Shown in pieces: positions 1,336 through 64,000 of a stretch of 64,000 bases of DNA; the first letter of the stretch is position 1, and each line of letters opens with the position of its first letter. The stretch is from positions 62,001-126,000 of the forward strand of contig JABSSW010000037.1 of assembly GCA_018902385.1 (NCBI GenBank), written 5' to 3'. The notes under the pieces were generated by a model that was not told the origin of the DNA, did no database searches, and saw nothing but the letters and a program-made list of their open reading frames with translations. The position numbers and the translations under genes are program-made. The stretch comes from Physcia stellaris (lineage: Eukaryota; Ascomycota; Lecanoromycetes; Caliciales; Physciaceae).

Positions 1336-3952
1336 ATCAAGTTGATGAAGCGGGTTTGAGGATGCTTTACGCTGTTGGAGAGATTCTTCCGGCTTGAGTA
1401 TAGCCATCCGGGTTGCGGGGCGTGTGTTATGAATATGGGAGGTGTTTTGACGGTGGAATTCGCTTCATGGTGGCGTCCATGAGCTGGTTGCCGGATACAT
1501 GGGCGTTTGAGTAGGCTTGACTTATGAGCAACATGAACGATTTCCACCCCGATCGTTTGCTGGAACGAAGTATAGTACATATCTTGACCACACCCTAGAG
1601 ATTAGGCACGATTGCAAAGCAATATCTCAAGTAGGCGCACCAGGCACATAAATCTATACAAATTATACATCAGATTATCACGTGAAAGATCTCCATTAAA
1701 GTACACTCAGCTTATGGATATCCATGGAATACTCGTAGAACCCGCATTCGCCCAGTCTATTGATGATTCTAAACACTATTCCGTCTGGGAACTATATGGC
1801 TATCATTAACGCGGCTATGTAAGTAGTTCAGTGATAGCACTGAGGGCTAAGGTTCTGTAGCCGCATGATGCGCCTTCCGATGGGCCGGCACACGGGAGCC
1901 ACTATCTCTACGCGAGTACAATTGTAGACTACCATGGATCAGGCCGGGACCGTCTGCCTGCTCTTAGGCAACGTTAAAAGCATTTAGAGCTGATTACGAG
2001 ATGTGACTTAAAAACCACTCTGCCGCATGTCCTCAGAGCTGTGACCATTGTTAGCAACCATGTCTCACCGCCGAGCCTCAAAGTGCGCTTTTTCGCTCGT
2101 TCGCGTCGGTACAGTGGTGTTTTACAACGGGTTGCTGGTGATCAACAAGTGGGTCACTCCTTCGTTCAATAGGGGATTTACCTGGCGCTTTACGTCTTCA
2201 ACTTGAAGGTCGATCTCCACGCTAGCAAACTGCCGTGAATAGCTAACAATGTAAATGGGAGGGTATGGAAGGACTTAAAAGCGTTCCAACAACGATATAT
2301 GCGCTGTCCGGTTATGTGGGGTCTGAGTCATCTCTCTTCTGCCTCGATAACCTGATCAATACTGGAGACTTGGCTGTGGGTTTCTCTAACAGCAGCATCA
2401 GGATTCAGGGGTAACCTAGAAGATATTTTAGCTTTATGTCTTCAATGGATCGATCATGTTCTATTATGGCTTGGTGGCACTCCGTAACTGCAGGCCAGTA
2501 TCTATTTCTTGGACCAGCAACCACTGAAGACAAGGAGAGTTGCACTACGTTGTGCATCCTCAACGATTTTGAGTGCGTGGCTGCAGGCTGACGGTTGTCG
2601 AATTTATCATGCAAGGCATCATGCAGCCCTCCGACTCCTAATGCTCAAATGGTCGCCGTTCACTCGCTTAATCCTGGGGCCTTGTCCCAGTAATTCTAAT
2701 CAACGGTTGCTATCAACTTATCTACTAGCCTTACGTTGACCAAATTCTGACCCTCTCACCAGGTTCTGATCTGTTCAAGTCATAAATCGGATGGAACAAT
2801 GGCGATTGTATAGAACGATCAGTTTGTGGGAAACCAGGACAAGAAAACACATAGATAGATGAGACCCATTCTTTCTCCGCAGAATCACCCCATTAGAGCC
2901 TTTCCTCACAGGAAGCCTTTGATGACGCTCCTAGCCTTGGCTCATACCCCTTTTATACCCACAAGTGAGAGCTTTCGACCTCCCAATCAGGCCCCTCTTT
3001 CCCCTGCACTTTTGGCCCTGCGGACCAATCCCCGACGCATCACCATGGGACCCGCGTACGGTGGGAGATGCCTCCGGCCCAATCAAAAGTTCTCGCCCAG
3101 AATCCGATCGTCCATGGTCTTTTTATCCCGGATCAGCCACCCGGGCCACCGCTCCACCCCCTCCTCAGCGGAGGCCCCTCCGCCCCAATCAACTTCGATT
3201 CTCGTGGGGAGATCTCGATTTCGCTGTTGCTACTAAACTTCTTTGAGGTTTTCACTCATTAACGTCGGATCTCCATGGGATTTCCGGAGGTGACTTCCGA
3301 CTCCATCGGGTGCTTGTTGTCGTCGGAATATCGCCACCCCTTTGCCATTTGGTACATACCTAGATATATTGTTGACATATGATCTGCAACAATGATTGCC
3401 GCTACCTCCATAGATACGAGTGCAGTATACGACGAGGAGTCAGCGGATTGCGAAAGTCTGTCCATAGTGGCTTAGTAATGAGTCCCAATCTGCAGGAAAC
3501 AACTTTGAAATTGCGTCAACTGCTAATTCAAGTCCTGTAGATGCACTCTCTGATTGGTTGCTCGCCTAGCATAGCGCGATGATCTAGAGAACTAGTCCTG
3601 CACCTCAATACTATACTTTATCGTCAGTAGAACCTATCATTATTCCTGCACTTTCAATGTCTTATCAAAAATCAATACATTGTTTGCGTAAATAGAAAGC
3701 AAATGGAGCGCATTTAGCCGCACTTGGAGTTGCCAAGACTCGGCAAATGCCGCTTTTCCATGCTCATCATATCACAAATTAGTCGCCCCATCAACATATT
3801 CGGCTCTCTTGGTCTACTTGACCTTGCACCAACTTCATTAAACCATCTCGAAGCTCGGTCACTCGTTCGATCCCCGCTAATGTTGACTTTTAGTTTCCGC
3901 CATCTTCAGCAGTGGATGTGCTGGTAATATCTCAATCAATCTTATTCCGCAG
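1336..3952. other. Intergenic, no gene recognised
   Basis: Only short overlapping frames are present, none with a recognisable domain, signal peptide or convincing splice pattern. The CCAAT-box cluster at 2983-3189 is the only ordered signal. Base composition is ordinary, so this is not part of an AT-rich mutated compartment. Confidence 0.5.
2983..3189 (+). promoter_or_regulatory. Cluster of four CCAAT boxes
   Basis: CCAAT occurs at 2983, 3025, 3079 and 3185, all in the same orientation; three of the four are followed by CA. CCAAT is the binding core of the fungal HAP/CBC complex. No clear gene begins just downstream, so a promoter role is inferred only from the clustering. Confidence 0.25.
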
Positions 3953-48336: not shown

Positions 48337-49884
48337 TAGGTCAGTCGTGATGGCGCTTGGCGGCCCGGGGACGATTCCGCTCAGAACAAGGTATCCTGAG
48401 GCAGGCAAGCCTGTCTCCGTATGCCCAGCGCGTGGTGTTCTAGGGTTAGAGTTACAGCATATTTACGCGACCGGATGAGTGAGTGACCATGATGAAATTG
48501 AACGAAAATGAAAATAATCACGATGATTTCAGACAAAAAAAATGATGAATCAAAATAACAAATATGAAATAACTATAAAAAACAAATTATTGAATGTAAA
48601 AAAAATGAAAATTGAAAATTGATAAAACAATAAAATGAAAAACAAATTGAAATGATATTTTGATTGACAAAAATGAAAAAAAATTTGAACGTCGTATAAT
48701 ATATATATATGCAAATAAAAAATCAATATTTTAATGAAACGAATTTGATTGAATGATTTAACGATTAAAATTGTAAATAAACATTTTTCATTCAAAAAAT
48801 CGCGAATTCGAATCGTATGATAAACAAAATGTTAAACAATCGAATGAATTATTTCATGATTATAAACACAAAACGCAAATTTTGACGCGAATGAAAATTT
48901 TCAAAATAATCGAATTGATAATTTGAAATCATTCTAACATGTGAAATATAACAAACAACAAACATAATTTTTTTTGTTGTTGTTGTGATCATGATGAAAA
49001 ATCGCGCGAAATACGAAACAAAAAACGATTGAAATGTTGACAAGACAACGACAATTGCAAACAGAAATGACAAGACAAAATCGAATCAAAATGATATATG
49101 AATCGAAAAAAAAAATGATAAAAACATCGCTCGAAAAAATAAAAACGATTTAATCGTATTTGACGAAATGAATAATAATGAAAAAAATGAAAAAAAAAAA
49201 AAATCGAACAGATGTTTCGACAAATTTCTTGTGATGAATTGCAAAAAAAACGCAACAAATCGTAAAATTGTTAATGATCAAAAAAAATCAACTGAATGTA
49301 TTGATGTGAAAAATCATTTATTTCGTCGTCATTGAAAACATCGTCGCACGATCACAATTGAACGTGTGTGAAATTTACGACGTGATGAAAATTCAAAAAC
49401 GCGTTGAATCGTGTCAAAATTACGTTTTTGAAATTCAGAATTTCGTATTACAATTCATCGTCACGATGTGAAAAATATACAAACGTGTAATGTCGTCGAT
49501 GCAAAACAAAAATTGAAAAAAAATAAATAAATGCAAAAAAAATTGCGAAAACGACGAATAAAAAATTAAACGAACGTTCGAAATTAAATTTTATCGATTT
49601 CGCAATATCAAATTCACGACATGATGATTATAAATTAACATATAATATGAAAATATCAATTTCATCACAAATATTGTTCAACAATTAACAAATTCAACAT
49701 AGAATTTTTTTATAATAAAATATTTTGTAAGTTCGTTTAACGCGAATGATCGATCGAAAAACATTTTGATCAATTTTGTGTTCGTATTTCTTAAAATCGA
49801 TAAATTCAATCAATACATAATTCGAGTTTTCAATCGAAACATACGTCAAAATCATTTCAAAACGTTTCAACAACGTTCAATTAT

Positions 49885-50278
49885 TGCATATTTTGCATCG
49901 CAATTAACAATCACATATGATTTTCATTTGAATAATTTATATTGTAAAACAAAATGAACGCATTTCAAAATCGTAAAAATGACAAAAATCAATTCATTAT
50001 CGCAATAGTTTTGAAATTGCGAAAATTTTGTCGTTGTCAAATTTGTGTCAAATCGTCAATTGAGATATTTGCGAAAAAATTTCGTTCAATTTTTCGTCGT
50101 TTGTACAGTTGTTTCGCAATTTGCACATCAATCAACAATCACATATAATTTTTATTTATTAAATTAAAACTGTAAATCAGAACGAGCGCATTTCAATGTT
50201 TCAAAAATTATCGAAATCGATTCATTATCGCAATAATTTTGAAAATTCGAAAATTACGTCGTTGTCAAATTTGTGTTT
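49885..50278 (+). repeat. Direct repeat, 228-bp offset, in a less-mutated island
   Basis: Segments of about 165 bp at 49885-50050 and 50113-50278 align in register. For example CAATCACATAT occurs at 49908 and 50136, TTCATTATCGCAATA at 49993 and 50221, and TCGTTGTCAAATTTGTGT at 50031 and 50259, each 228 bp apart. This stretch also keeps several AG dinucleotides (such as CAGAACGAGCGC near 50178), unlike its surroundings. Confidence 0.65.
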
Positions 50279-53200
50279 GTTGAAATGTGTTGCGTTCGAT
50301 TTTCGACAATGTTTGCAACGTTTCAATGCGATTTCGATTATAATTCAATGCGCATTCGATAAATATTCGATATTATTGATTATTTGAATAAAATTCATTT
50401 TGAATTTCAAAATGAATTTTCGTTTGTATATTTTATTTATTGAGTGTAAATGTTATTAAAATGCGAAATCGTTGACATCGCAAAACAATTGCGAAATGTC
50501 GATTTTCGCAATTTTATCAAATTCAAATCTAATTTTGAAATTTTGCATGAAATTTTTTGAAAAATTCACGAGCAAACTTGTCATGTTTTAAATACATATA
50601 AATTGTTTTTTTCGAACGAATTTAAATTGCGAATATCGAAACAATAAAAAAAAATTCACATTATTTTTTTCGAAAAAAATCGAAAATCATCAAAACATTT
50701 CAACAACGATTCAACATCGATAATATTCAATTACAATATACAAAAAATATTTGTTCGACAATATCAAATTTTTAACGTATCACAAAACATATTATTAGTC
50801 AATCACGTTTATTAAAAAACATTTTCGTACGAATGAAATAAAAAAACTTTAAAATAAAAAAAAAAAAAAAATAAACGAAATTGTAAAATGAAAAATAATT
50901 ACAATAAAAACATTTTTTGATGCGAATAACGACAATTTTTTCACAATATCGTGTATAACGATGTTTGCAATGAAATCGTTTTTCATAACAAAATTTTTTT
51001 ATACATGATCATTGAAAAAACGTTCAAACGTCAAATTTCATTTTTTTTCGTTTCACACGTTTATTTACAACATCAAATGAAATCGTTTTTTCGTTTCATA
51101 CGTACGTTGATTTTTTTTTTCGAAAATAAAATCAAAAAAACGATGAAAATTTTTTTACGACACGAAATCGTGATATTGAAATTCGATTTTTATCATTTTT
51201 TGAAAATTGATTTTTTGAAATTTTTGTTTTTTCGATGATAAAAATAACATTCGAAAATTCAAAAACGAATCGTTCGATTTCGATATCAAAATCGAAATCG
51301 TCGTAATTGTCATGTTGTTCAAATTGAAATGATTTCTCGTTTTGAAACAAAAATAATGAAAAATCGACGACGATTTCAACACGATTATCGATTGATTCGT
51401 CGATTTCGTCGTTTTTTTTTGATCGTTCGCGTTCAACAAAAAACGTCAATCGACGTTTTTTGTTGAATGATCGTTGCGAAAAACATTGATTTGTGAACAT
51501 TAAAAACGCTTTCACGTTTTTAATGTAAGTTTTCGTGTCTCTTTGATGCAAAAAAAAAACGATGATATTGACGAAAATCGAAAATATCATTTTTGCGATC
51601 GCGAATTTCACACGCATCGAATTTAAAAAAATCAATTGTCGTTCAAAATCAAAAAAAATATAATTTATTCAACGAACATTGCGATATTTTGTGTTTAAAT
51701 CAATATTCGTCGCAAATTTCAAATTCATTTTTGATTTGACGACAAACGAAAAAAACAAATTTCGATTTGTTTTTTTCAATTTGAACGCAACGAATGCAAC
51801 GTTGCGACGTCGTTCGATCGACGATTTAACGATATGATTAATGACGAATTCGAAACACAAATTTTCGATATGATTTATTTGAATCGCAAACGTTTTGAAT
51901 TTTTGCGAATGCGTAATATTCGCAAAAATGCGATCAACGAAAAACAAAAACATTGCGTGATCGTCGTAAAAATTGACGAAAAAAAAACGATCATCGCGAA
52001 AAAAAACGTTTCGAAACTAAATCGTTTTTTCGTGAATCAAATTTTTGTTGTTTATGCATAATCAAATTCACAACAACGACATTGACGACGAGAACGTATT
52101 TTTCGTTATTCATTACATTCACGTTAAAATTCATAATGACGAATAAATCAAACAAATATATTTACGTGTAATCAAAAATCGAACGTTGCGTGACATCGTG
52201 ATATTTAAAAAAAAAAAAAAAAAAAAATAAAATGTAATAAAATGATTTTGAAAACAACGTTAATGAATGAATTTCGATTTCGTCAACAACACATTGTGAT
52301 TGTATCGTATATCAACATTTGTTTAAAAAAAATCATTGTGAATAAATCAAAAACAAAAATAATATACATTATCATCAAACATGCGTGAAACACATGTGAA
52401 AAAACATTCGTACGAATAAAAATTTTAAAAAAATAATTAAATTCAATCAAACAAAACAAATCAATTCGATTTTTAAAAAAAAAAAAAACATATCATTTCA
52501 CATAAACAATATCAAATGAATGAAATGAAAAAAAAAAAATTAAATTTTTTTTCGAACAAAATTATATGAATGCATTTTCATCATCACACAAAAAACGATT
52601 TGTGTTGTGAAATTAACAAATAATTGATTTGATATTCGTACGAATACACACAAAAAAATTCAATAAAAATAAAAAAAAATTTTAATAAAAAACATCAAAA
52701 TATAAATGAATACGATGAAAAATTCGCGACGAAAAAAATTATCGACAAATTTCGTCAAACGTGACATTTTTGAACGATTATTATAATCGTCAATAAAACA
52801 CAAACAACGAAACAAATGACATAATTTAAAACACAACACGTATTCATTGTCGACGTACGAATTAACATCAAAAAATTCAAAAAAATGAAATAAACGAAAA
52901 AAAAATTAACGACGAACACAAAAATCAAAATACGAAATTTTTTTGAAACAACAAATTTATTACATACAAAAATTCGATAAAAATCGCATTATTCACGATA
53001 CATTGATTGTCAAACAATTGATTCAAATTTTTCACAATCAAATAGCGATTTCATTCAATATCAACGACAATAATTTTCGTTAAATTTTCATTTCATGATG
53101 TTTCATCGTCGCACGAACATATTGTAAACGTAATTCGCGAAAAAAAACACGATTCAAAAAAAATTGTTTTTTTTCGAACAAATCGATGACGTTAACAATG

Positions 53201-53670
53201 ACATACACGTCGCAATTGTGATTATCGTTTTGACGCATATTGATTATCGATCGAATTTGATCATCGAAAATTGCATTTTCAAAATAATTCGATTTTTTTT
53301 GCAAAATTTCAACGTACATTTTTAAAAATCGTTGAAACGACGAATTTTTCATATCGAAAAAAAAATTGCATAAAATGATTAAAAAATTCGTATTTTGACG
53401 AATGACGAAAAAAAAAAATCAATGATTCGAAATGCACACAAAAATGACGACAATAATAATGATAAAAAAAATATCAATGAATTCAACATTTTCAAATCGT
53501 TTGAAAATCATCGTTTGCACGTATGTCGTCAAATTCGAATTTAACAATTGTACGTTGAAAATCGATTTCGTCAAAACATTGATTGCGACGAAAATCGAAA
53601 AATTATGAAATCAATGAATTGTCAAAAACGAAAACAATGCGTTAAAATCAACATAAAATTGAAAATCGTG

Positions 53671-56600
53671 TCAAAAACGTTCGATTGTGTGCAAATTTTG
53701 ATTGTCAACATCATTCACGATTCGATTGAAAAAAAATTGATCAATGATTTCGACGATTTCATTTCGTTGATAAAAATGAACGAAAAACAAATTTCGTTCG
53801 TAAAAATCGCATGAAATGTTCAATCGAAAACGTTTCGAAAACAACATGAATGCAATATCGATTAACGTCAACAAATTCAATAACGACGAAACATCAATAT
53901 TGTCATTCGATATTACAAAAAATCGATTCGAAATTTCATCATTTGTTAAATTGTAAAACGAAAAAAAATCATTGAACGAATCGTCATCGACGTAAAAAAA
54001 AAATTCGTGAATTTCAAAATCAATCACGAAATTCGAATTTGTCGTGAATTGTTTTTTTTCATTCGATTTTTTTTTGAAAAACAAAAAAATAATTTTATCA
54101 AAACGATTTTGACGACGATATTTATCATTCAATCGTTTTATCATTTTGACGAAAATCAATTTCGAAAAAACATCACGAAAAACAGATTTTTCGATGACGA
54201 AATTACAAATTTTTCGAATTTTAAACAAAATCACATAAACGTTTGTCGTGTGAACATTTTTGAATTGTAAATAAATCACGATTTTGAACAACGTGAATTT
54301 TTGATTTTTGTGAATCGTGATGACAAAAACGAATTTCAAAAAAAATTGAATTCGATGACAAAAAACGTGATTAATTTCGAAAATGTTCGTGATTGAAACA
54401 ATGAAAATCATTTTGCGATTTTCAATATCGATGAATTTATTGTTTTCATAATCGTCAAACTCGATCATAATCATGATCGATAAACGAAAATGAAAATTTT
54501 GTACGTCGTTTTTTCAAAAAATATTGTGTATCGTGTTCATGATTTCGTTGACGAAATTTTTTTTAATTCAAAAATTTCGAATCAACATGATTTTCGCATC
54601 AATGACGATAAACAACGTATTGAATAAATCGTCAATATCGTTTTCGTTCATTTGTGCAATTTTTGCGTCATGATTCGTGACGTTCACGCGTAACACGAAT
54701 TTTTGCAATTCAATCAAACGTTTTATATTGTGATTGACGATTTGTTTTCGAAAAAAATACAATTTGATAACATCGCGAAAAAAATCATTTTTTTTGCGAA
54801 AAATTAAATCGATTTTTGTTGACAAAAAAATCAAAATTGATTTTGTCAATAAAATCATTTCGAATTTGATTCAAAATACGACGAAAAACGAACACGTTCG
54901 TTTTGTTTTTTTTGACGCATAATTTTTTTCAAAACGATGATGCGTTGAAAAACAAAATAAATCAAACGATCAATCGAAAAATTATCATCGTTGTACAAAA
55001 CGTGATCGTCGACGAAAATCAATTGATCGAAATCGTCACAAAAAAAAATATTGAAATCGTCGAAATAAACGTCGAATTTGCAAAAAATTTGACGTAATCG
55101 AAAATTCACAAAATGAAAAAATTTGCATTTCAACATCGATTTCTCGTCAACGATCAAAAATCAACAAAAATCAAAATTCGATTGAAATTGAATTAATTTC
55201 GTTTTGTTTAAATTATTCATTTTTCGTCGAACAAAAAATTTGAAAAAAAAATGCAACGTAAAATCGTCGATGTTGTAAACGATTACATTAATAAAAATAT
55301 TTCGCAAAATCGTGAATTTCGAACATTTTTCATTTTTTTGATTGACGTGATAAATCGAAAATTTTAAAAACATATCGATTACGCGAAATTTTTCAATGTT
55401 AACAACGTCGTTCAAATAAATGAAAAATTGATTTGTACAATTCGCAAAATAAACGTTGACGTACAAATTGAACATTTTACGTTATTTGATATTCAATTGA
55501 TCGAAATTTTTTTGTTTCGACGAAATTTTCAAACATCAAATCGAACATATTTTTGTGTCGAAACATAATTTCGAAATTTTTTGCGATTCGAAAAAAATCG
55601 ATATCGTAAAATTTACGAAATCAATCGTGTTAACGATTTATAAAACGTTATTTCAAATTAAAATCAATTTCGACGTTTCGATTATCGCGATCAAATTTGC
55701 GAAAAACGAAAAATTTTTCATGTGTTTCGATTTCGATAAAATTTTTTTCGTTGTTAATCAAAAATTTCATGTTCGAATCGTTTTTTTGAAAAAAACGATA
55801 TTCATTCAACGAATCGTAATCGTGAAATTCAATATGATTGTCACGACAAATTTGATAAACGTCATGTCAAATTTTATATGTCACGTCGTCGACGATTTTG
55901 AAATTTTCGACGTTTCGAAAAAAATAATGCAACATCAATTTTGTTTTGCAATAATTGTTCGAATTTTTTTCGTTTTTGTATTTGAAAAAAACATTGACAA
56001 CAATTTCGCGTCGAAACGTGAAATTTTCGATTCGAATATTTCATTTGTAATTTCGAACGAATTGAAACAAAATCATGTTTTTTTTGTTTTTTTTTCGATC
56101 ACAATATTTTTTCAATTTGATGTCAATGACAATGAATTCATTTTTATTTTCGCAACATTCAAAAAAAACGACGCGTTTTTGTTTATGAAAAAAACGAAAA
56201 TTCAAAAATTTTACAATTTTAAACGAATTTCGAAAATTCAAATCGAAAAAAATATGACAAATTTTTTGTGTCGATCAATCTCGTTCAACGATAATTTTGT
56301 TCAAAATTTTCGTGATGTAATTCGTCAAAAAATTTTCGACGTCGAATTTGATCGTGTTCAACAACGTTCGATTGACATCGACGAATTTTTGAAATTGTTT
56401 TTTCTTTTTGACGACGTATTTGAAAAAATAAACGACAACAAAAATGATGTCATCGCAAAAAAAAACGTCGATATTGACATTTCAACAAACGATAAAAATG
56501 AACATGTATTTGTCGAACAAAAAATCGTTTCGAATCGATTCAAACATGAAATGTTTTGCGTTGAATTTGTTTTCAAACGCAAATTTTGTGAAATGTTTTT

Positions 56601-57180
56601 GAAAAAAATGAAATTTGCAAATCAAATCGTCAACGTCATCGTTTTTTTTTCGTTTCAAACAATATTGCGAAATGCATTTGATGTGACGTTGATATCGATT
56701 CAAAAATTTCGTCAATTGACGCATAATGTTCGAACGATTTTCGAAACGAAAATTGTTAAAATAAATCGTCGTTGAAAAAAAAATAACGTCAAAATTCAAA
56801 ACGACGATTTTCGAATTTCAATAATCGACAAAATTTTATTTCATATCGTTGTTTGAAACATTATCGATTCACAAAAAATCATGTATGTAATCGTTGTCAC
56901 GATTTTGTCATTCATATCGATATCAATGTTTTTTGATTTTGAATTTTTTTTTCAAAACGTCATTGAAAAACATTTTTCAACGAATAATGAAATATTTCGA
57001 TACGATGTGAAAATTTTGTTGCAAAAATTGCATCGCGATGATTGTTTTGACGAATTCGATCGTAATTTTTTTATATCGTTTTTTTATGTCAACAAAAACA
57101 TAATCGTAAAAATCGTTTCATTGCATATCGACGACGTTGAAAATAAAAAAAAAATTGAAAATTTCGATACATAATATCAT
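53671..57180 (-). mobile_element. Helitron Rep/helicase fossil (minus strand)
   Basis: Minus-strand frames follow the order of a fungal Helitron protein, right to left. At 57.06-57.18 kb is a weak match to the Rep-proximal region. At 56.48-56.80 kb is the block CKFHFFQKHFTK then FESIRNDFLFDKY. The PIF1-type helicase follows: TLHFFFKFFVRRKMNDL-like text (55.2 kb), LIVDEKSMLKCKFFHF (motif II, 55.1 kb, written here with its neighbouring frame), then VLKKIMRQ. Next come NHNIKRLIELQKFVLRVN (54.7 kb), and FVITIHKNQKFTL with VYVILFKIRKIC (54.2 kb, motifs V-VI). Pro and Gly of the family motifs are replaced throughout, in line with the CpY mutation pattern. It is split over several frames and clearly dead. 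The LTR element at 57558 interrupts it. Confidence 0.82.
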
Positions 57181-57552
57181 TGTTTCGAATTTCGATTTGA
57201 TTTTTTTTCAATAAAATTTGATATTTTTTATAACGTCATTTCGTTTGATGATGTTGTCAATCAAATGATTATTTTTACGCGACGTTATTTTTTTGAATTG
57301 TTTCAAAATAAATTTTTTGTTCGAAAATTGTTTCGTCATTCACATAACATTTTTGACGATTCGTGATTTCATAAAAATATTGAAAATTCAATAACGAAAT
57401 TGAAAATGACGAACAAAACGATCGTTTTTGTACAAAAACAAATGTTTGATTCATTCATCGAATTCAATTCGTTTTTCACGCGATTCGATGAAGACAATCA
57501 ATTTTCGCGAAAAAAAAAAAAAAATTTTGTACTCGATGTGCAAAAAAAAATC

Positions 57553-57557
57553 GAATT
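57553..57557 (+). repeat. Target site duplication, left (GAATT)
   Basis: GAATT directly precedes the left LTR and is repeated directly after the right LTR (60786-60790), the 5-bp duplication expected of LTR-element integration. Confidence 0.9.
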
Positions 57558-57755
57558 TGTTGAAAATACAGTCTTCGCAAATGTGTTGCAGTCAGAATTC
57601 AATTGATATAATTTGACGAAACAGAAATTAGTGCGTTTTTGTTGAAATTAATATTTTGACATTCGCACACTTCTTGTGCTCTCATCTGCATGTAATTTAT
57701 TAAAATAACGAAATTTAGAACAATAGAATGATAATCATTCATACATCTTTTAACA
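57558..57755 (+). repeat. Left LTR (198 bp)
   Basis: Starts TG and ends CA. It differs from the right LTR by about 15 transitions and two small length differences (1 and 4 bp), with no transversions seen. Of the transitions, 13 are in CpT/ApG context and 2 in CpA/TpG. Confidence 0.9.
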
Positions 57756-58357
57756 GATTATGAGAATCGAGTTAGCAGCTTTCGTTACATCTAGTATCAA
57801 TTACAGCATGTCAGAAAATCAAAAGCAATAATAACTAGTCGTCAAACAGTACAACAATGTATTCGCAGCAATAATCAATTTCATTGAGAATATTCAGTCT
57901 AGTCAAATCAGAACGATCTAATTGCAATCGAGCAATATTCAATATCTTGATACACACGATCAGTACATTCAGTACGATTTCAGTTACATCGATAATATTT
58001 ATTTATTTATTTTTTACGAGTTTTTCACGAATTCGTCTATCTATCGAATTTTTTTACGAATATTTTACGATATCGAATCTTCTCGCGAATTCTATTATTT
58101 AGTCAAAATGACGTTTTTATTTTTGCGATCATTTTCGCATTTGATTTTTTATTTTTTTCGTTTGTTTTTGCGATTACGTGTCTGAAAATCATCTCATGAC
58201 GCAAGATTTGAAAACACTGTATATCATGCATTTGACAAAGAATGTTAAAACTTTAAGATGCAATTGATACGTGCAAGTCAAGAAATCACAAGAAATTTAT
58301 CATGCTCGAAAGCACGAGTTGATCATGAAGAGCAAGATGAAATAAAAAGCGAAAAAG

Positions 58358-58612
58358 TTGTTGAAACAACAAAAAGAAATTCGTCTGATCAAGAAACGAA
58401 CTGAAGAATATACTTGTAAACGTTGCAAAAACGATACGAAATTCGATAACAACATCAAATTTCACGAACATATTCGCAATCGACATGCGAAAAAGTCGAA
58501 ACAATTTGCAAATTTCAACAATTTGTTGAACTCGTTGTTTCATTTTTTATTTCGTTTATTTCATCTGTTTTCGAATCGATCATTTCGTCATTTTTTACGT
58601 CATCGAAATTAG
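58358..58612 (+). pseudogene. C2H2-like zinc-finger relic inside the LTR element
   Basis: A frame containing EYTCKRCKND, then FHEHIRNRHAKKSK. The C-x2-C-x12-H-x5-H pattern is of a type often met in fungal transposon-associated proteins. It is the only coding part recognised within the LTR element and is a fossil. Confidence 0.6.
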
Positions 58613-60592
58613 TAGTCGAATCAAAGCTACTTTTATTTCTTCAGAATTTTTTTCGAAATCGCGTCAGAATCTTTGTCGATTGCAACATCAAAAAAGTCGA
58701 TATTTTGAACAGAAATCGTCTCACGATCAGTTGTGACATCGAAACTTTTTCGTTTTTCGATTGCGACATTCAAATCGATGTGCGATTTCTCGAAGAATGC
58801 AAACATTGTTTGCTCGTTTATTTCGTCGTTCATTTCGTCTCGTATCTCGTCATTGAAACATCAAGACATTCGGATTCAGAAATCTTATTTGATCGTGAAT
58901 GATTTTTATCGCATGTTCGTTGAGAAATCGAATTCATTTGATTTGCAACGACATCAAATGCGTTCGTTTTTTTCGAAGAGTTTTGACAAATGTAATCGCG
59001 ACAACAATTTCAAAACAAATGTGATTTCATACAAAGTCGCATTACGTCATATTTTCATGCGACGATTTCATCTGTTTCGAAATCGATCAAATTCGAAACA
59101 TTTGCATCAATTCACGTCTCGATGAAACATTCGACTCGCACGTCATTTTCGCGAATTTTTCGATTTTTTCTTTTTCGATGCGTTTTCATTTCTCGACATT
59201 CTCGCGTTCATTTTCTGTTTGCAAACATTGCAAAAAGCGTTTTGTCATTTATCGATTTATCGATTGAGTCATGTCAAATGTTTTCAGAGTTGAAAATAAT
59301 GAAATACTCATGAAAACAACGTTATTGAAGTTTCGTTTCTTTTCGTTTTACTTTGAAAAAGTATTGATTTCTTTGAAATCATTACTTTGAAAAAATCAAC
59401 ATGTTGTTTGTTTGTTTTGTTCGCTCGCTTTTTCTAGTAATCGTTGATCGATTTGAAAGAGTTAAAAGTTGTTGTTTTAATGAATTCGATGTTTCGTTTC
59501 TTTCGTTTCATTTCGATTTGAGAAAGTTTTACAAGTTGTTGTATATTTTTGTTTATTTGTTTTATTGTTTAACGAATATGATAGAAATTTATTTTGTTGT
59601 GATTTCGTCTTGATTTAACACGACTAATTATCGTCTCTTTTTCTATTATTTTTGAGACTTAGTCGCTCGATAAATACGAGAAAAAAGAGTGAATACAATC
59701 GTCGTATTTGACGTATTGTACGAACAGTTGTTAGAAAAAAAAAAATAGACTAGATTGTATCGTTTCGAGAAAACGTATTATGCAATCATATTACATTTCG
59801 ATTTTGCAGACTAGAAACTCGATCAAAAAAAAACAAAAATTCGATCAAGAAAAACAAATAATGTTGAAAATATTTGATTTTTTCGCATACTAATCGATTT
59901 GATTTTCTGACAAATTTTAGTCAAATCAGAAAAGTTCGATTTTGCATTCTTTGCATCGAAATGTTCGTCGCATTCGATGATCATTTTTTTTATCGATTTT
60001 TCGATCGTTTTTAGTTTTGCGCATCTCGTCGACATATTTTTTGAACTTCTTACAGTCAAATTGCAAAAATATCGATTCATTGATGTCGCAAGAAATATTT
60101 GAAAATTTTGAAACATAATGATGTTATCAAATCATAATGTGATTTGCATTTTCGTTCGTCATCGCAGAATTCAAACATAAAATACTTAATTCATGATATA
60201 TTTTCTAGTCAATTCTAGATATCAAATCTCATATCGATGTTTCATTTCATGAAAATTCAAAACACGATCGCAATTTTTCAGATGTTCGATTGCACGTTTT
60301 ACAATTCGACTTTACGTCATATCTGAAATCAATAAATTATCGAATTTCGATTCGTTCGTTTTTGCAATCTTCGCATCGATGTATGATTTAATTTTACAAA
60401 ATTTACGTTGAGAGTTTGTTCGAAAGTTTCAAACAATACATCGTTGAAAAGTCAGAATTTACATCGTTGAAAAAACTCTAGAATGCGCATCGCTGAAAAA
60501 ATCATTTCGTTGAAAAAATTTGCACGAAAGTTCTAAATTGAGTTCGTTAAAATACAGAACAAATGACACAAACGATTGTTGTAAAAAAAAAA

Positions 60593-60785
60593 TGTTGAAA
60601 ATACAGTCTTCGCAGATGTGTTGCAATCAAAATTCAATTGATATAATTTGACGAAACAGAAACTAATGCGTCTTTGTTGAAACTAATGTTTTGACATTCG
60701 CACATTTTTGTGTTCTCATCTGCATGTAACTTACTAAAATAACGAGATTCAGAGCAATAGAATGATATTCATACATCTTTTAACA
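60593..60785 (+). repeat. Right LTR (193 bp)
   Basis: Direct copy of the left LTR, preceded by an A-rich polypurine run and followed by the GAATT duplication. Confidence 0.9.
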
Positions 60786-60790
60786 GAATT
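60786..60790 (+). repeat. Target site duplication, right (GAATT)
   Basis: Second copy of the 5-bp duplication flanking the LTR element. Confidence 0.9.
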
Positions 60791-60804
60791 CGAAAAAAAA
60801 AATA

Positions 60805-61167
60805 TTACGCATTGTAAACATCGAAAAGAAAACGACGACATTGAAATTCATTTTTTTTGTTATTCGTTTGACATTTCAACGCGTTTTGTAATGTTCGAAA
60901 TTCGATTTCGATGATTTTCGAATTTGAAACGCAAAATTTTTCGATGAAAACGACGTCGAATTGCGAATCGAAAAATTCGTTTTCGAATTTTTTTTTTATG
61001 CGTTCGTCAATACATGCATTACATTGATTGTTGATCAACGCATCGTGTTCAACATTTTGAAAAAACGAAATTTTTTTTTCACGCGATTTCAACGTCATCG
61101 ATTTGACATCGTTCAAAATAAAATTATTTTTCGACAATTGATTCAATCGATCAACATCAATAATCAT
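60805..61167 (-). mobile_element. Probable N-terminal part of the Helitron fossil
   Basis: A minus-strand frame with a Cys-containing segment (NNQCNACIDERIKKKFE) resembles the Cys-rich N-terminal region of fungal Helitron proteins. It lies in the right strand and position, just beyond the LTR insertion, to continue the Helitron at 53671-57180. The match is weak and the assignment is mainly positional. Confidence 0.45.
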
Positions 61168-62321
61168 GTTTGCGTAATTCGAATGATTGACGATAAAATA
61201 TCGAAATTATTTTTCGACATGATCACGTTTAACGTTGAATTTTCGATCGTATTCGCGTTGCACGACATTGTTTTTCAAATCGACAAAAAAAAATTTCAAA
61301 TGCAAAATTTGCAATTTTCGAAACAACGACGACAATTTGAAAACGATTTTGAAAATATTTTGCATTATCATGAGTCGTGCTTGAATAGACGTATTATTGA
61401 TTAACTAAACGAAAACAATAAATTTACAAAAACAAATAGATACACGATGATGAAATTGCAAACAATGTACGAACGTCAAATTTCAAATCACGTTAATTTC
61501 GTCAAAAAATTAAAACATAATTCGATTTAAACATATTTGTTTAATCATTTATCATATCAATTATTTATTTGTCAAATCTATTTGTCAAACATGTTCGTAA
61601 CATTATTTTTTTTTTTTCGCGAGCGTCGTTTCGACGATTTGTTGTTGTTTTGAAATTGGAAAATCTTGTTGAAGAATTTTGTTGATCAAATTGTATGATT
61701 GCAAAATTCAAAATTTCACGATTATCATTTTTCATTTTTTAATATTTTAATGTCATTTCAACGTTCGATAAAATTTGACGACAATTTTTGAAAATATTTT
61801 TGACACGATTCATTTTTTATGCGATGTAAATTCTGACTGTAAATAACACGAAAAAAATAATAAAAATCGAATTGTTGAATAAAAATCGTGAAATCAAAAA
61901 CAAATGAGTGAAAATTGAATTCGTGATTTCAAATGTTAATCGAAAATAATTTCGATTAATGTTAACATAACGATTTTTTTCGAAAACGACGACGATTCGT
62001 TGAAAAATCTGATTCGTTGACGACGATTTGAAATATTGAAATCAACGTTTTGAACGATTTTGAATTTGTTGTCGAAAAATAAATACGATAAAAATCGTTT
62101 ATCACGTCGCGAACATTATCGAATTTTTCGTTATCGACATAATATCACGTTCGATCATGAAATCAATTCGATCAATTGACACGATATTGAAAACGATTGT
62201 AATGATATCGAAATTTTAAAATATCGTTCATTTTTCATTCGAAATTCTCGTTGACTATGACGAAATCGAAAAATTCATTGATTTGATTTTCGAGAAAATC
62301 ACGAAAATCTTTGCGAAAAAA

Positions 62322-64000
62322 TCAACAATGAAACACATCGTAAATTCGCATGATTTCTGACAATTCGAATCGATAAAAATTGTTTTTACGTTTTAATATT
62401 TTGTACGAATTTAGTTTTTTGTCATCAAACTTGTCAAATGATTTGATCGTTTTGATATTTCGTCGATTCAAAAAAACGAAATTTTTTTCGATGTATTTCA
62501 CGATTTTTCGATGTTTGTTGATTTGAATTGTTATACGTTTTTGAATCATTTTTGCATGATTTCGTACGTAATTGAAAATATTTTGTATCGTGTCGATGAT
62601 ATTTTTTGTTTTGACGATCAAAAATCGCTTTTTCGTTGTAATATACGAAATAAAATTCAACGAAAAATTCATGCGAAAATGAAATTTTTTATTGATAAAA
62701 AATGATGATAATTTTGTTGTTGCAAATATCGCGTTGTTGTTTGCAAATTCGATCATGAACAATCAAACATTTCAATCGTTTTGCATGTAATTGCAATATT
62801 GTCGCAATTGTTTTCGATATTTTGATTGATTTTCTCGATTTGCTCATCGATTTTGAATGAAAAACGATGAAAAATTTACATTTAATGTCGAAAATTTTGC
62901 AAAATGTTTGTCAAACGAATGATATGAATTAAAATTCTCGATTTGACGTTATAAAAAAAAAATAACTCATACGTGCGAAACACGTAATTGATAAATATTT
63001 TGATCGTGATTTTCGCATTTGTATTTTCATCGTCGACGATGCAAAACACGTAATGACGTTTTTTATTAAATTTGTCGATTATCGTGCAAATGACGTTGTA
63101 ATCGTGAACGTCGAACAATTCGATGATAAAATTCATAAATATGTCGATTTAACATTGCAAAAAAATGATCAAAAAGTAAATAAATCATTTTTTCGATTTC
63201 GAAAAATTTTAATACGTTGACATTCATAACAATTGCGTACGTATCGACGAACGAATTTGCGCATGTTGAATCAATAATAATCGCGACGTATAAAATTTTT
63301 CATACGATTGAAATTTGAATGTTTCGAAATCGAAAATTCGTGAATTTTTTTGAAAAAATCAACGAATAAAAAAACGTCGACAAACATTCATAATCGATCA
63401 TTTCGATATAAAACATCGTTTTTTTCATTGCAATTTCGTAAATCGATTTCGTTCATTGAAATAAAATTTTGTTCGATAATTTTACGATACGTCGTGCAAT
63501 CATCGTCAATTTTATTGACGATTAAAACTCGTTCGTAAATAGATTCGTCAAATTTTATCGCGTGAATTTCGAATCGTTTTGAAATGAACAATATTTGTTT
63601 TCGATATTGATGTCGTTTATCAATTTCGTTTTTGAATCGAAAATCAAACATACAAATCAAAACATTTGTTTTAACGTTTTGAATTTCGAATTGAAATTGA
63701 ATGACAATGTTGAATTTCGAAAAATTTTTTTCAACGTGTTTGACGAAAAATGAATTTCTTTGACGTCATGAAAATTTTCAGTTTTTGTGATCGATGAAAA
63801 TTTTGATCGATTTTTCGATGTTTTCGAATTCAAAACGTCAATGCTTTAAACAACGAATAATGATTAATAATTTTTTGTCATAAATTTCGTAATTGCATTC
63901 GATTGAAATCATGTTGCGATTGTAAAAAACAACGAAATGCAACATTTTTTCGTCGTCGTATTGAAATAATATTTTTGCATTGACGTAATCAAAAAAATCG
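62322..64000 (-). mobile_element. Ty3/gypsy pol fossil, runs off the window
   Basis: Minus-strand relics occur in pol order from right to left. The region before the integrase zinc-binding domain is at 63388-63660, the start of the integrase catalytic core at 62882-63136, and the integrase C-terminal region at 62322-62762 (resembling the RNIKTIKSFDKFDDKKL segment and a DVFH end of this superfamily). Protease, reverse transcriptase and RNase H would lie beyond 64,000. Heavily mutated and broken many times; old, with the CpY pattern saturated. No LTR was identified in the window. Confidence 0.78.

Follow-up and report, generated by a model that had tools for sequence, protein, structure and literature searches.

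The AT-rich compartment at positions 48,486–64,000 of the 64,000-nucleotide stretch analyzed here (the window; contig JABSSW010000037.1 of the lichen-forming fungus Physcia stellaris) carries a Helitron and other repeats in which cytosines standing before a pyrimidine (CpY) have been replaced by thymine on both strands, while cytosines before a purine have for the most part been kept. The 3′ context rule is CpC ≥ CpT >> CpA > CpG with little dependence on the 5′ base; CpC is lost ahead of CpT, the same C-to-T change recurs across more than one repeat family and on many contigs, and it is absent from the unaffected DNA examined. We consider these changes to be probably the work of a process akin to repeat-induced point mutation (RIP), directed at duplicated DNA and acting on both of its strands with a CpY preference.

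Loss of CpC and CpT in the window

Expected dinucleotide counts were derived from mononucleotide frequencies. Across 48,486–64,000, CC is present once and GG twice, against 291 and 279 expected (3 vs 570 for the pair), and CT and AG number 131 and 149, against 742 and 789 (280 vs 1,531). CA (993, with 806 expected), TG (929, with 727 expected) and CG (999 vs 285, a 3.5-fold enrichment) all exceed expectation. These counts bear out an earlier note on this DNA, which had described a near-loss of CC, CT, AG and GG outside the nested long terminal repeat (LTR) element together with abundant CA, TG and CG. Its remark that TA is not raised was correct but understated, as TA is in fact depleted (792 vs 2,058 expected), with observed/expected ratios (O/E) of 0.23–0.49 across all 15 kilobases from 49,001 on; TC/GA is enriched from the same position (O/E 1.21–1.56). 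The absence of all four dinucleotides that it gave for 55,561–56,279 is exact (~92 expected), although the free run really begins at 55,144, and the longest such run in the compartment extends over 1,139 positions (53,045–54,183), the longest in positions 1–48,000 being 46. The DNA at 1–48,485 serves as an internal control, with CC at 2,953 (3,051 expected), GG at 2,897 (2,934), CT at 3,245 (3,028) and AG at 3,220 (3,031). The compartment begins abruptly at 48,486, ~100 bp inside aligned repeat homology that starts at 48,384. The features of the window are as follows, C2 and C78 being contigs that carry related Helitron copies (L057 and L056, respectively).

1–48,485, unstranded: ordinary unaffected DNA, internal control, 49.7% GC
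48,384–48,485, unstranded: unmutated outer margin (~100 bp) of the repeat homology, from alignment with L057 (C2) and a 50-bp profile
48,486–64,000, unstranded: CpY-depleted AT-rich compartment, 27.1% GC, from dinucleotide counts
48,386–49,700, minus strand: first aligned piece of the Helitron copy, the references being L057 (C2) and L056 (C78)
49,699–50,581, unstranded: ~880-bp repeat inserted in the Helitron, CpY-depleted, with many genome-wide matches, lacking in both the C2 and the C78 Helitron
50,581–57,557, minus strand: main aligned piece of the Helitron copy, with 72.6% identity to the C2 copy (unmutated) and 93.9% to that of C78
55,144–56,279, unstranded: run of 1,136 positions without CC, CT, AG or GG, including 55,561–56,279
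57,558–60,785, unstranded: nested LTR element, GAATT at both flanks, the C78 copy having the empty site
57,558–57,755, unstranded: left LTR, 198 bp
60,593–60,785, unstranded: right LTR, 193 bp
60,786–61,365, minus strand: Helitron copy, last aligned piece, from alignment
61,400–64,000, unstranded: further multi-copy repeat, CpY-depleted, with at least 37 other near-full-length copies at 87–95% identity

The Helitron in the window was recognized through its C2 relative L057, whose reading frames match the Pfam families Helitron_like_N, PIF1 and Peptidase_C48; a search for relatives in viral_contigs found none. L057 has a normal composition (GC 51%) and was used as the unmutated reference for polarizing change in the two long mutated copies, that of the window (contig C37) and that of C78, which have only 71–75% identity to it. 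Relative to L057, C-to-T change has removed 1,003 of 1,017 CpC cytosines (98.6%) and 1,010 of 1,053 CpT cytosines (95.9%) from the window copy, compared with 109 of 1,170 at CpA (9.3%) and 49 of 1,182 at CpG (4.1%), so that CpA, the preferred target in RIP, is not the preferred target here. Change in the opposite direction affects 10 of 1,071 CpA (0.9%) and 28 of 1,161 CpG sites, with 111 transversions. Of the 2,323 substitutions in the window copy relative to C2, 2,174 are C>T or G>A, a dominance of transitions such as RIP produces. The C78 copy represents an earlier stage, in which CpC is nearly gone (1,043/1,066, 97.8%) and CpT less so (864/1,127, 76.7%), with losses of 82/1,233 at CpA (6.7%, vs 1.9% in the reverse direction) and 58/1,224 at CpG (4.7%); treated as simple decay, these values place the CpC rate at ~2.6 times the CpT rate by our own arithmetic. 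The exclusive CpY specificity proposed in the earlier note thus holds as a strong preference but not as exclusivity, given that CpA loss exceeds the reversed change in both copies. This minor CpA loss varies with the +2 base, at CAY 80/537 vs CAR 27/606 in the window copy (~3-fold) and CAY 54/565 vs CAR 27/641 in the C78 copy (~2-fold).

The base 5′ of the target matters little: across 5′ neighbors the fraction lost ranges over 0.94–0.99 for CpC and 0.93–0.98 for CpT in the window copy, and over 0.74–0.82 for CpT in the C78 copy. Where two cytosines precede a purine, CCA became TCA 255 times and CCG became TCG 215 times (470 together), compared with 31 cases of CCA>TTA and 5 of CCG>TTG (36 together), so a cytosine before a purine is spared even next to a mutated one. 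CTA and CTG are outside the 14 commonest outcomes. An APOBEC-like 5′ context, which would turn CC into CT, is ruled out because CCR becomes TCR.

The LTR element nested in the Helitron records a less advanced stage. The C78 Helitron has the empty site, and its two matches overlap there by 5 bp. The element has no CC and one GG (148 expected together), and its CT and AG are only partially depleted (205 vs 341 expected), which indicates that CpC is lost before CpT. The two LTRs of one element are usually taken as identical at insertion; here they differ at 15 bases, 13 of them C/T before T and 2 before A, with no transversions and 5 gap positions. The proposal that the process has run to exhaustion therefore stands for the Helitron and fails for the younger LTR element within it.

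Genomic reach, link to duplication and RIP indices

The genome searched comprises 43.97 Mb in 147 contigs, and the published assembly has 46.57 Mb in 184 scaffolds at 43.32% GC (PMC7513301), so some sequence is absent from the assembly searched. From 81 matches to the LTR element we cut out 30 loci, one of which (L005) is the window's own copy, and compared them in 236 pairwise alignments. The fraction of sites differing by C/T was 0.79 at CpC and 0.64 at CpT, vs 0.076 at CpA and 0.064 at CpG. These loci are spread over 23 contigs and every one is CC-depleted. All five fetched loci of the ~880-bp repeat show loss of both CC and CT, and in 15 of 15 repeat interiors CC stood below CT/AG, down to the least advanced, L020 (CC 0.58 and AG 0.74 of expectation). 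We also chose 20 stretches by hand, at round positions on 14 contigs no shorter than 369 kb and hence not as a random sample; two of them displayed CpY depletion. Alignments of the Helitron copies, the LTR-element loci and the LTR pair agree in placing C/T changes mainly at CpC and CpT and not at CpA, the comparison that the earlier note had proposed, and its concern that the loss might be confined to this contig is answered by the LTR-element loci together with the two sampled stretches; the recurrence of the same depletion on many contigs rules out a one-contig artefact. The affected share of the genome may be about one quarter, because the published GC of 43.32% compares with 49.7% and 27.1% in the two compartments of the window.

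Affected DNA is multi-copy wherever copy number was tested. The repeat at 61,400–64,000 and the affected sample stretch L044 each have dozens of genome copies at 85–95% identity, and the other affected stretch, L052, has many partial copies, mostly at 67–85%, whereas the unaffected stretch L046 matches only itself in the genome search. Thus, three of three tested affected stretches are duplicated and the one tested unaffected stretch (of 18 unaffected in the sample) is single-copy; the Helitron, LTR and 880-bp families are additional multi-copy affected DNA. An 886-bp copy of a repeat, L060, is mutated inside and normal outside, with flanks of 56% and 58% GC. Counted per 50 bp, its CpY content falls within 50–100 bp of the left end and recovers over the last 150–200 bp at the right. 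At the left end of L060, as at 48,384–48,485 in the window, the outermost 50–100 bp are unmutated despite a near-saturated interior.

Conventional RIP detection does not register this change. The classical thresholds are TpA/ApT ≥ 0.89 and (CpA+TpG)/(ApC+GpT) ≤ 1.03, and the compartment gives 0.40 and 1.31. We also scored AT-rich 500-bp windows (GC < 0.35) from the window itself, the hand-placed sample and the loci fetched by homology, of which L005 and L055 overlap the window. Both thresholds were passed by 0 of 31, 0 of 7 and 2 of 389 AT-rich windows in the three sets, respectively, and joint loss of CC and CT was present in 30 of 31, 6 of 7 and 375 of 389. Among GC-richer windows, the classical thresholds were passed by 2/97, 3/73 and 4/61, and joint loss was present in 0, 0 and 3. 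Surveys based on these indices can therefore call a heavily mutated genome RIP-free.

Candidate methyltransferases and competing explanations

Homologues of RID and DIM-2, which the earlier note had suggested seeking, are both present. The Pfam family PF00145 matches four places in the genome, read as three genes among the best candidates scored. L002 is DIM-2, with a 1,009-aa open frame that reaches the end of the locus, PF00145, the catalytic motifs and a match to 9bap_A at E 2e-181. L003 (P0193; 932 aa, PPCQ and EQT, 98% identity to a named P. stellaris protein) and L001 (PPCQ and EET) are RID/Masc1-family methyltransferases with motifs I, IV and VI present, their later exons having been read as separate frames; the EQT/EET contrast is presumably a RID trait. 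A methyltransferase tree was built from 96 of 97 chosen rows out of 312 proteins, with P0207 dropped because it lacks the motif pair and with neither DIM-2 nor a Neurospora RID or Ascobolus Masc1 included, and it carries a long-branch warning. The clade that contains L003 has 43 rows (support 100/99), every one of them EQT except P0217. That of L001 comprises 33 rows, all of the EET type (100/96), and the named eurotiomycete enzymes group separately in one of 19 rows (100/97). Heterodermia, like Physcia, holds both RID-family clades, with a long EQT and a short EET form that are well separated. The first two appear to be lichen clades, judging from a few named rows (Physcia, Heterodermia, Dirinaria and Pseudocyphellaria).

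We hypothesize that the agent is a C5-cytosine methyltransferase, because such enzymes read the 3′ neighbor, and that one or both of the RID/Masc1-family enzymes L003 and L001 would most likely be responsible. The activity would fall around the sexual cycle, as in RIP, with a presumed premeiotic timing; the P. stellaris culture was started from ascospores, and apothecia are abundant in the species (PMC7513301), which we count in favor of this reading. The process has probably acted repeatedly, with the window Helitron now close to exhaustion and the younger nested LTR element stripped of all its CpC and part of its CpT. A repeat-directed C-to-T process with CpY specificity, as the earlier note proposed, is supported by the alignments and the multi-copy tests, and RIP proper, premeiotic and driven by RID, would be a hypothetical extension of that result. 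The Physcia lineage may well possess a repeat-mutating system nearly complementary to classical RIP, in which two old RID-family enzymes, or just one of them, attack CpY and not CpA, degrading transposons while keeping CpG and CpA, and which has escaped notice because the usual RIP indices were designed around CpA.

Several observations weigh against a RIP-like process of this kind. The C2 and C25 (L062) Helitrons share 91% identity across 2.77 kb and, beside heavily mutated relatives, neither departs from normal composition. As a control, their comparison yields C/T differences of 29/300 and 18/289 at CpC, 22/334 and 8/320 at CpT, 14/337 and 8/331 at CpA, and 13/339 and 14/340 at CpG, with 76 transversions, which amounts to a mild CpC excess only. 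The pair would tell against a strict duplicate rule, but its copies may be recent or protected. In five loci with one GC-rich flank (L019, L026, L027, L032 and L034) the low-CpY zone extends ~100–300 bp beyond the matched stretch, which is not necessarily the end of the repeat. The fraction of mutated CpT in the C78 copy shifts smoothly along the 9-kb element, from 55/56 at one end to 18/42 at the other, a gradient that could be spreading, and coordination of changes on the same strand of that copy is not clear over 1–15 bp (r 0.17 for same vs 0.15 for opposite strands).

The smooth C78 gradient and the overreaching zones also speak for the main rival, an unlikely but serious one, in which DIM-2, acting in heterochromatin, methylates CpY in repeats and the 5-methylcytosines turn into T over many generations, mitotic ones included, with RID only initiating the process or not needed. 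The DIM-2 orthologue L002 is present, N. crassa DIM-2 performs mostly non-CG methylation with CpT preferred (PMC13297926), and in Zymoseptoria tritici repeats gain more C>T changes in mitosis when dim2 is functional (PMC8016269). The dim2-dependent changes in Z. tritici, however, occur at CpA, with CpT hardly methylated (PMC8016269), the CpC preference is left unexplained by anything found, and the abrupt left end of L060 fits DIM-2 poorly, though its right end fades more slowly. Still less probable is an undescribed deaminase, or a division of labor in which RID paralogues split CpC and CpT between them. The presence of both RID-family clades in Physcia and Heterodermia, and the stronger depletion of CpC than CpT in all repeat interiors scored and in both Helitron copies, would suit split labor, but a single enzyme with a graded preference explains the order equally well. 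A search for APOBEC_N (PF08210) found no match, which argues only weakly against a deaminase as the control was without a match too.

A compositional bias or dipyrimidine damage of the ultraviolet (UV) type is scarcely credible. Every target site is a dipyrimidine, but UV signatures strike a C that follows a pyrimidine and TC/GA is enriched here; moreover, the adjacent DNA is untouched and the same element is present elsewhere in unmutated form. The TC enrichment and the alignments rule out UV-type damage for the dominant signal. It is also very improbable that Nanopore sequencing miscalled modified C before pyrimidines as T, even though the assembly is Nanopore-based (R9.4.1, Guppy 3.0.3; PMC7513301) and methylation is expected in repeats. 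A CpY site has its C on one strand only, so reads of the opposite strand should call G correctly, and near-complete change on both strands would not follow from miscalls. Mutation has also gone further in some copies than in others, and the nested element lags behind its host Helitron. As for the earlier note's worry about a single read set, the published method describes a Nanopore assembly followed by two rounds of polishing with ~30x Illumina data (PMC7513301).

Relation to known RIP-like systems

The Physcia process works like RIP but fails both RIP's CpA preference and its standard indices. It shares with N. crassa-type RIP the change of C:G to T:A on both strands in repeats, graded stages, RID and DIM-2 homologues and AT-rich compartments, and it differs in sparing CpA and CpG, in taking CpC first and in leaving the classical indices silent; CpC is the weakest target in N. 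crassa RIP. A CpA preference is described as common to RIP-like defences (Badet and Croll, PMC12543289).

The nearest precedent is CpT-rich RIP, reported beside CpA change in Magnaporthe oryzae, Botrytis cinerea, Sclerotinia sclerotiorum, Colletotrichum truncatum and Anisogramma anomala (PMC4352252, PMC6180176, PMC10998396, PMC2621366, PMC5555474 and PMC7882544 as a group), and CpT to TpT is called dominant in alignments of RIP-capable fungi (PMC7882544) and in N. crassa Tad1 (PMC2621366). In these cases, as in Physcia, the conversion of CpT to TpT ranks as a major or dominant class, and a change at CpT is by itself no novelty; CpA is lost alongside it there, however, and kept in Physcia. The C. 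truncatum table, for instance, gives a (CpA+TpG) index below 1.03 in 11 of 13 listed families, indicating CpA depletion. The term CpC does not occur in PMC4352252, PMC6180176, PMC10998396 and PMC7882544, and in the open-licence literature of PubMed Central we found no process that takes CpY while sparing CpA. The earlier note's statement that no described process has this specificity therefore holds for CpC-first change with CpA kept, and must be qualified for CpT, given the CpT-rich RIP known alongside CpA.

Other systems resemble the Physcia process in part. The dim2-dependent mitotic mutation of Z. tritici is likewise methyltransferase-dependent C>T change in repeats, but it is CpA-specific (PMC8016269). 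Mutation of the CpG type (Microbotryum and Tuber; PMC4352252) is also dinucleotide-specific C>T change, with CpG as its main target, whereas CpG is the best survivor in Physcia. Among lichen fungi, Cladonia rangiformis has strong compartmentalized RIP with RID and DIM-2 homologues, as in Physcia, but its ripped GC peak is near 16%, compared with 27% in the Physcia compartment (PMC12542154); the main text of that study gives no dinucleotide context, the terms dinucleotide, CpA, CpG, CpT and TpA being absent. RIP is also reported in the lichen fungus Endocarpon pusillum, where, unlike in Physcia, repeat indices of 1.47 and 0.70 are of the CpA type (PMC3897900).

The spectrum in Physcia is expected to break reading frames differently from CpA-type RIP, because CpA to TpA is what turns CAA and CAG into TAA and TAG. 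With a natural, nearly complementary rule, two RID-family genes and DIM-2 together in one genome, it becomes testable how RIP picks its cytosines and whether RID or DIM-2 is the chooser.

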